The notes below the pieces were generated by a model. That model saw nothing but the letters and a program-made list of their open reading frames with translations, ran no database searches and was not told the DNA's origin. The position numbers and the translations under genes are program-made. From Halalkaliarchaeum desulfuricum (GTDB taxonomy: Archaea > Halobacteriota > Halobacteria > Halobacteriales > Haloferacaceae): 64,000 nt of DNA. The stretch lies in assembly GCF_002952775.1 (NCBI RefSeq), contig NZ_CP025066.1, positions 496,001-560,000 of the forward strand, given 5' to 3'. Position 1 is the stretch's first letter. Each line of letters starts with the position of its first letter. Shown in pieces: positions 12,186-14,537 of the stretch.

Positions 12186-14537
12186 ATGAGCGACGACGTC
12201 GAGGACGAAGAAACGATTCACGTCGCGGAGGCCAGCGCCGGACCGGGCGCATCCCCGGACGTCGAACCCGGATCGCCGATCGAGATCCCGGCCGTGGAAC
12301 TGCTCACCGGGCGGGGGTTCGTCACCGGAAAGTCGGGGTCGGGCAAGAGCATTCTCGAGGGCACGCCCGTCGAGACGCCCGAGGGGCCGAAACCGATCGA
12401 GGAAATGCGGAAGGGCGACCAGGTTCTCTCGTTGAACACCGACACTCACGGGGCCGAGTTCCGGCGAGTGCGGGCGACGATCCAGCACACCGATGACGAC
12501 CTGCTCTGTATCGAGCTGGAAGACGGCACCGAGGTCGTCGGTACCGGGGACCACAGTTTCCTCACCCTCGAGGACGGGGACATCGTCCCGATCCGCGGCG
12601 ACGAACTCGATGTCGGTGCCTGGATGCCGACCGCCCCCGAGTTCGTCGACGGCGATCCATCAATCTCCCGAACCGACGGAGGAATCGTATCCCTCGATAG
12701 TGCCGACAGTCCGGTCCACGAGGACGGGCCGCAAAACACCGACGACATCCTGTGGCAGCAGGTCGTCTCGATCGAACCATACCCGGGCGAACGCGAGGTG
12801 TACGACCTCGACGTGGTCGGGACGGACACGTTCCTCGCGAACGGGGTGTTCGTCCACAACTCCAACACCGCCTCCGTCTTCGTCGAGAACCTGCTTGCGG
12901 AGAACCTCAACGTCCTGATCGTCGACACCGACGGCGAGTACTACGGCCTCAAAGAGGAGTACGAGATCCTCCACGTCGGCGCCGACGAGGAGTGTGACAT
13001 CGTTGTCTCGCCGGAACACGCCGAGAAGCTGGCGAACCTCGCGCTCGAACAGAACGTGCCGATCATCCTCGACGTCTCGGGCTACCTCGAGGAGGATGTC
13101 GCCGACGAACTCCTGCTGGAGACAACCAAACACCTCTTCGCGAAGGAAAAGAAGCTCAAGAAGCCGTTCTTGCTCGTCGTCGAGGAGTGCCACGAGTACA
13201 TCCCCGAACGCGGCGGGATGACCGAAACCGGAAAGATGCTCATCAAGGTCGGGAAACGCGGGCGGAAACACGGGCTCGGAATCGTCGGCATCAGCCAGCG
13301 TCCCGCCAACGTCAAGAAGGACTTCATCACCCAGTGTGACTGGCTCGTCTGGCACCGGCTCACCTGGGACAACGACACGAAGGTCGTCGGCCGGATCCTC
13401 GGTTCCGATTACGCCGACGCGATCGAGGACCTCGACGACGGGGAGGCGTTTTTGATGCGCGACTGGGCGGACTCGATCGACAGGGTGCAGTTTCACCGCA
13501 AGCAGACGTTCGACGCCGGGGCAACGCCGGGGCTCGGCGACTTCGAACGCCCGGAACTCAAGAGCGTCTCCGGGAACCTCGTCTCCGAACTCGAGGAGAT
13601 CAGTGACGAAGCGGAGCGTCGGGAATCGGAGATCGCCGACCTGAAACAGGAACTCGACCGCAAGCAGGCGCGGATCCAGCAGCTCGAACAGGAGCTCGAA
13701 GAGGCGAGAGACCTCTCGCAGATGGCCGACCAGTTCGCCCAGGCGCTTCTGGGTCGAGCGGAGGCCTCCTACCGTGGTGGGCAGGGACGAAACCTGCACC
13801 GCGAGGAGGTAGCCGATCAGTCGGTGCTCCCGGAGTACGAACCGGCCGGATCCGACGGTCCCGAAGATCGGAATTCCGACACTCGAACGGAAACGGCGGG
13901 TCGAGGGGAAACGGAGGTTCCAGACGAAGCCGGAGCTCCAGACGAAGCCGGAGCTCCAGACGAAGCTAGTTCTGCAAACGAAACGGACCCTGGAGACGAA
14001 ACGGAGGTTCCGGACGCGGCAGATGTACCGGGCAGCCGTGCCGCGAACGGCGGTCCGATTCCCCCGATCGACGCCGACGACGTCGCGGAGGTGGCCATGG
14101 AGTTCGCGGCCGACGTCCGGCTCGGCACCAGGGAGGCGGTCATCCGGGAGCTGCGCGGGCGGATCGAGTCCGTGCCGGAGTTGTCCAGACGGATGCTCGA
14201 TCACTACCGTCGAGAGGGCACGAGCGAACCGATCGCCGCCCACATCGACGCTGGCGGCGACGGCGACAGACAGATCGCCTACGGACGCAACCGTCCGCTC
14301 AGAACGACCGGGCTGATCCGACACGCCGGCCAGGGAGAGTACACCTACGCGATCCCGGACCTGGTCCGGGACGCGTACGCCGACCGGTTGGGCGACGACG
14401 AGGTCGACGAGATGGTCGATGCGATCGAAGCGGCGTTCGACGGTGAGACCCGTGAAGAAAGCCGCGACGAGGACCGCGACGAGGATCGCGACGAGGACCG
14501 CGACGAGGATCGCGACGAGGACCGAGATTCCCGGTGA
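12186..14537 (+). CDS. HerA-like (DUF87) ATPase with an in-frame intein
   Basis: A HerA/FtsK-type P-loop ATPase, the class that translocates DNA; HerA partners with NurA nuclease in archaeal end resection, but no nurA is in view. The Walker A motif is interrupted: GKSGSGK is followed by a 171-residue intein, after which SNTASVF resumes. Walker B is FLLVVEECHEYIP, and the segment GLGIVGISQRPANVKKD resembles the sensor/arginine-finger region. After about residue 455 come a coiled coil, a Pro/Glu/Thr-rich linker with repeated PDEAGA, a conserved C-terminal domain, and a tail of RDED repeats. I chose the ATG at 12186 over the GTG at 12171. The spliced product would be about 612 residues. Confidence 0.9.
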   Translation: MSDDVEDEETIHVAEASAGPGASPDVEPGSPIEIPAVELLTGRGFVTGKSGSGKSILEGTPVETPEGPKPIEEMRKGDQVLSLNTDTHGAEFRRVRATIQHTDDDLLCIELEDGTEVVGTGDHSFLTLEDGDIVPIRGDELDVGAWMPTAPEFVDGDPSISRTDGGIVSLDSADSPVHEDGPQNTDDILWQQVVSIEPYPGEREVYDLDVVGTDTFLANGVFVHNSNTASVFVENLLAENLNVLIVDTDGEYYGLKEEYEILHVGADEECDIVVSPEHAEKLANLALEQNVPIILDVSGYLEEDVADELLLETTKHLFAKEKKLKKPFLLVVEECHEYIPERGGMTETGKMLIKVGKRGRKHGLGIVGISQRPANVKKDFITQCDWLVWHRLTWDNDTKVVGRILGSDYADAIEDLDDGEAFLMRDWADSIDRVQFHRKQTFDAGATPGLGDFERPELKSVSGNLVSELEEISDEAERRESEIADLKQELDRKQARIQQLEQELEEARDLSQMADQFAQALLGRAEASYRGGQGRNLHREEVADQSVLPEYEPAGSDGPEDRNSDTRTETAGRGETEVPDEAGAPDEAGAPDEASSANETDPGDETEVPDAADVPGSRAANGGPIPPIDADDVAEVAMEFAADVRLGTREAVIRELRGRIESVPELSRRMLDHYRREGTSEPIAAHIDAGGDGDRQIAYGRNRPLRTTGLIRHAGQGEYTYAIPDLVRDAYADRLGDDEVDEMVDAIEAAFDGETREESRDEDRDEDRDEDRDEDRDEDRDSR
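12348..12860 (+). other. Mini-intein in the Walker A motif of the HerA-like ATPase
   Basis: The 171 codons translate to a protein-splicing domain. It starts with Ser (SILEGTPVETPEG, block A, then KGDQVLSL), has a block B with the splicing histidine in GTGDHSFLT, and ends with block F and the terminal His-Asn in LANGVFVHN. The next extein residue is Ser, a valid +1 nucleophile. Removing it joins GKSGSGK to SNT and restores a perfect P-loop. No LAGLIDADG or other homing endonuclease is present between blocks B and F, so this is a minimal intein. Confidence 0.92.

Follow-up and report, generated by a model that had tools for sequence, protein, structure and literature searches.

A mini-intein, very probably descended from a homing intein, at the Walker A Lys/Ser junction of a haloarchaeal HerA/FtsK-superfamily ATPase

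The window analysed here is a stretch of 64,000 nucleotides in the complete 3.31-Mb chromosome of the haloarchaeon Halalkaliarchaeum desulfuricum. Between dinB and tpiA, a gene order that is conserved (dinB-ATPase-tpiA), it contains an open reading frame for an ATPase whose P-loop is interrupted by 171 residues. The frame has no internal stops, and its ATG matches the start of the orthologs ('MSDE/MTD...'). The features of the locus are as follows.

12186-14537, + strand: precursor ORF, HerA/FtsK-superfamily (DUF87) ATPase plus mini-intein; 783 aa, ATG at 12186, stop at 14537
12186-12347, + strand: N-extein, 54 aa, ending in the Walker A GKSGSGK (12327-12347), delimited by alignment with uninterrupted orthologs
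12348-12860, + strand: predicted mini-intein, 171 aa, from Ser1 to His170-Asn171, without an endonuclease domain
12348-12350, + strand: Ser1, predicted block A nucleophile, invariant in same-site inteins; stands in for the Walker A Ser in the precursor
12543-12554, + strand: block B TxxH (Thr66-Gly-Asp-His69), with T66 and H69 invariant
12645-12722, + strand: disordered linker, residues 100-125 (pLDDT <50), putative vestige where the endonuclease was lost; its counterpart in the 432-aa inteins is the endonuclease region
12798-12815, + strand: block F VYDLDV with the putative catalytic Asp153, invariant
12855-12860, + strand: block G His170-Asn171, invariant
12861-12863, + strand: +1 Ser, invariant; the Walker A Ser that splicing would restore
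12861-14537, + strand: C-extein, with the remaining ATPase, a coiled coil and a C-terminal domain
13167-13187, + strand: acidic Walker B-like FLLVVEE in the C-extein

In addition, the 3′ end of the frame (14446-14530) carries a short acidic/basic repeat (EDRDEDRDEDRD) that is absent from the ORF of the congener.

The initial annotation had described 12348-12860 as an endonuclease-free mini-intein with blocks A, B and F in order and Ser at +1, and our results agree with this description. The 171-residue segment matched the Pfam Intein_splicing family (PF14890) with 77.3 bits (E = 1.5e-21, cut-off 35.8). A profile search of the same segment gave no LAGLIDADG match, while its 432-aa same-site relatives do match. 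The best solved relatives by sequence were the PhoCDC21-1 and NpuDnaB inteins. Furthermore, the AlphaFold model of the intein (pLDDT 83.5, with residues 100-125 disordered) matched solved inteins with Z of about 16-21 over 120-160 residues (19.9 for PhoCDC21-1, 21 for DnaB inteins). Blocks A, B, F and G are intact, and T66, H69, D153, H170 and N171 are invariant among 10 aligned same-site inteins. The features of a class 1 intein are present, namely the Ser1/Ser+1 pair, TxxH together with Asp153, H170-N171, homologs with an empty site and a Hint fold. The GC content of the intein (0.643) is close to that of the extein (0.649), and nothing in its composition points to a recent foreign origin. 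The model of the whole 783-aa precursor (pLDDT 55.6) was too poor for a structural reading of the intein within the ATPase.

The host protein had been called HerA-like, which proved right for the superfamily and wrong for HerA in the strict sense. An uninterrupted ortholog scored 49.7 bits against the DUF87 profile (cut-off 23.2), whereas the intein-bearing precursor scored 22.3, and solved HerA proteins were the best sequence matches to the host ATPase profile. However, the NCBIfam HerA equivalog gave only 41.9 bits against a cut-off of 970 with the intein-bearing precursor as query, a gap far larger than the interruption by the intein could cause. On these profile matches, the host ATPase is a member of the HerA/FtsK superfamily (DUF87), but it is not a canonical HerA.

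Alignment with uninterrupted orthologs confirmed that the intein lies exactly between the Walker A Lys and Ser: the N-extein ends in GKSGSGK, the insert runs from Ser to His-Asn, and the C-extein begins with SNTASV. The initial annotation had pointed to an uninterrupted site of the GKSGSGKSNT type in homologs as a thing to look for, and we read the uninterrupted GKSGSGKSNTASV directly in 39 orthologs (NSASV in one). Using the joined exteins as a tblastn query, we found the gene in 361 of the 392 genomes of the order, and in most of them the alignment passed the junction without a break; low-scoring genomes were checked separately. The ATPase is present in more than 90% of the haloarchaeal genomes surveyed. 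Since the site is uninterrupted in orthologs, the intein is a true insertion, and the observation as a whole lies far outside what chance could produce. It is therefore extremely improbable that the 171 residues are a normal in-frame domain of the ATPase family: nearly all orthologs lack the insert, its distribution is patchy, and it matches intein families in both sequence and fold. ATPase paralogs with an empty site also occur in viral contigs from IMG/VR that are about 51 kb long (L182, L183 and L184), and the viral-contig search found only such empty-site paralogs and no same-site intein.

At least 17 haloarchaeal genomes, from four families, have an intein at the same site, a minimum taken from the joined-extein matches listed. 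Mini-inteins were found in the window (171 aa) and in a congener (G001, 174 aa), both in one genus. Meanwhile, intact inteins of 431-433 aa with LAGLIDADG occur in Halegenticoccus soli, LUM.66, QS_6_71_20, QS_4_62_28, QH_8_67_36, SW_9_67_25, QS_9_67_17 and G241, and the intact ones that were tested gave 46-58 bits for LAGLIDADG_3. The intein of Halobacterium sp. CBA1126 was counted as intact by alignment to G241 (99% in the splicing blocks). In J07HX64, the endonuclease is weakened (LAGLIDADG_3, 35 bits), and the inteins of A07HR60, LUM.70 and a Salinarchaeum MAG gave no LAGLIDADG profile match despite their length of 401-453 aa. As judged from domain content, one site is found empty, or with homing-competent, decaying or endonuclease-free inteins, in related haloarchaea.

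Two related MAGs, QS_4_69_225 and QS_8_69_73, have a frameshift inside a full-length same-site intein, which means either that the assembly is wrong here or that the host gene is broken. A scaffold labelled Candidatus Nanosalinarum J07AB56 (L117), which carries the intein C-terminus and the ATPase, was considered as a nanohaloarchaeal copy and rejected, for it shares 97-99% DNA identity with a scaffold of the haloarchaeon A07HR60 and is probably mis-binned.

The VHN-Ser+1 junction is kept in all same-site inteins that read through. In addition, Ser1 and Ser+1 are found in 15 of 15 of them, including the LAGLIDADG-bearing ones. The Ser1/Ser+1 pair had been taken as a sign of an old, possibly domesticated intein, and this claim fails, because endonuclease-bearing inteins at the same site share the pair. 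Splicing control is possible, and the pair lends no support to it.

The extein tree, whose sample was enriched for intein-occupied genomes, requires at least nine changes between empty and occupied sites (gains or losses). In several endonuclease-bearing pairs, the inteins are more alike than the exteins (LUM.66 and QH_8_67_36, 85% vs 72%; Halegenticoccus and LUM.66, 85% vs 76%), which is a mark of recent homing or transfer. In contrast, the exteins are more alike than the inteins in the pair of mini-inteins (98% vs 77%) and in the pair with decayed endonucleases, A07HR60 and LUM.70 (94% vs 74%), which points to vertical descent with relaxed constraint. In the intein tree, the two mini-inteins group together in a well-supported clade. 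Intact, decayed and mini forms thus share one site, the minis being confined to the genus of the window, and the mini-intein is very probably what a homing intein has finally become, passed down inside a single genus. Gene conversion from another intein of the genome was considered on account of a 66-bp DNA match and rejected. The match falls in an MCM intein, namely in its C-terminal block, where most of the variable residues differ between the two inteins, and it is best read as a shared conserved motif.

Taken together, we consider it very likely that 12348-12860 is a class 1 mini-intein, predicted to splice, which derives from a once-mobile LAGLIDADG homing intein at the Walker A Lys/Ser junction. 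Homing copies would have spread among haloarchaeal families, the endonuclease would have been deleted in the genus of the window, and the element would then have been passed on vertically. The mini-intein may persist because it must splice and because it cannot easily be lost from the P-loop with the precision required.

Splicing itself is deduced from the class 1 pathway (PMC10663303) and the conserved residues. Ser1 would attack the Lys(-1)-Ser1 bond in an acyl shift, aided by Thr66 and His69 of block B and Asp153 of block F, and Ser+1 would then take over the N-extein. Asn171 would cyclise and GKSGSGK would be ligated to SNTASV, leaving an ATPase that is able to form its P-loop. The spliced product of 612 residues given in the initial annotation is arithmetically right (783-171). 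Ser1 stands in the place of the Walker A Ser, so the precursor still reads GKSGSGKS, and the segment after the P-loop lies 171 residues further on. We infer that the precursor ATPase is inactive before splicing.

In same-site inteins, the block F His of PhoCDC21-1 and other inteins (GTHNF in an MCM intein of the same genome) is replaced by Asp (TDTF or NDNF; 12798-12860 in the window). This replacement counts against splicing, yet it is unlikely to abolish it, because the endonuclease-bearing copies share the Asp. In addition, some haloarchaeal inteins require the endonuclease domain for splicing (PMC10643990), and its loss could impair the activity of the mini-intein. Both points would fit a splicing-dead or only-cleaving remnant, with the ATPase non-functional or working as fragments. 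We regard such a remnant as very unlikely, for all key residues are kept, the frame is open in both species, and selection acts on both parts of the gene. Between the window and the congener, dN/dS (Nei-Gojobori) was 0.42 for the linker, whose dS is close to saturation. It was 0.04 for the ATPase, a sign of strong constraint, and 0.24 for the splicing blocks, which evolve under purifying selection.

Such selection is expected of any intein that must splice to free a useful host, and it is not specific to regulation. This bears on the proposal that the intein is domesticated, and that conditional splicing (by salt, DNA substrate, redox or temperature) switches on a DNA-pump ATPase. The P-loop site, the loss of the endonuclease and the presence of a mini-intein in both sampled species of the genus suit this proposal. 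Furthermore, the linker loop is retained, like the vestigial loop of RadA reported as a splicing switch (PMC5790916), and salt-dependent splicing has been cited for a halophilic intein (PMC10663303). However, the mini-inteins evolve faster than the ATPase, with a dN/dS about six times as high, and the linker shows little conservation from one species to the other. In addition, nearly all relatives live without the intein, and the Ser1/Ser+1 pair is common to homing copies. The proposal is therefore unlikely to hold. Its fuller form, in which the mini-intein controls a haloarchaeal HerA/FtsK-type ATPase via conditional (e.g. salt- or DNA-triggered) splicing and was fixed in one genus after endonuclease loss, is slightly less likely still.

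The host genome is rich in inteins: about ten of its genes together hold 25 Hint-domain pieces. Judging from the sequences, the hosts include RNA polymerase A'', MCM, ribonucleotide reductase, topoisomerase VI-B and replication factor C.

ATP-binding domains are stated to harbour about 70% of inteins (PMC10663303). A 2014 haloarchaeal survey listed 24 intein alleles from 13 genes, and no gene among them carries the annotation of a HerA-like ATPase; the survey's 'helicase-b' host is given only as 'ATP-dependent helicase' and might be the same protein (PMC4071816). We found no description of an intein at this host and site in the papers searched on haloarchaeal, HerA, DUF87 and FtsK inteins, with InBase and Novikova 2016 outside the search. 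The kind of element is well known, and the combination of host and site is probably a new intein allele, in an uncharacterised and widely conserved haloarchaeal ATPase. With this range of alleles at one site, direct tests of the homing cycle, and of the point at which an intein starts to benefit its host, are possible in organisms that can be cultured, such as Halegenticoccus soli.

The host shares the DUF87 central domain with the HerA/NurA helicase. However, it has only about 45 residues before the P-loop, which leaves little room for the HerA N-terminal barrel, and its C-terminus is a coiled coil. HerA and NurA are reported as absent from Haloferax volcanii (PMC7776575), and Haloferax species carry an ATPase of the window type.

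Among known inteins, the haloarchaeal rpolA (RNA polymerase A'') inteins are among the closest non-allelic relatives (34-40% over blocks B-G), but they differ in host, site and a +1 Thr. The MCM-a (cdc21-a) inteins of haloarchaea likewise lie directly after the Walker A Lys of a DNA-motor ATPase, with full-size and endonuclease-free forms coexisting (PMC10643990). They differ in the host protein, and block F holds His in at least one MCM intein from the same genome, whereas the window allele has Asp. The VMA-b inteins of archaeal ATP synthases share the position after the P-loop Lys (PMC10643990), but their host is a rotary ATPase and not of HerA/FtsK type. The RadA mini-inteins of Pyrococcus horikoshii and Thermococcus sibericus share the P-loop and a vestigial endonuclease loop (PMC5790916); conditional splicing has been demonstrated for RadA, whereas for the window allele it is hypothetical. 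The position directly after the P-loop Lys is an independent repeat of the choice made by the MCM and VMA inteins, and the preference for the P-loop is also seen in RadA.
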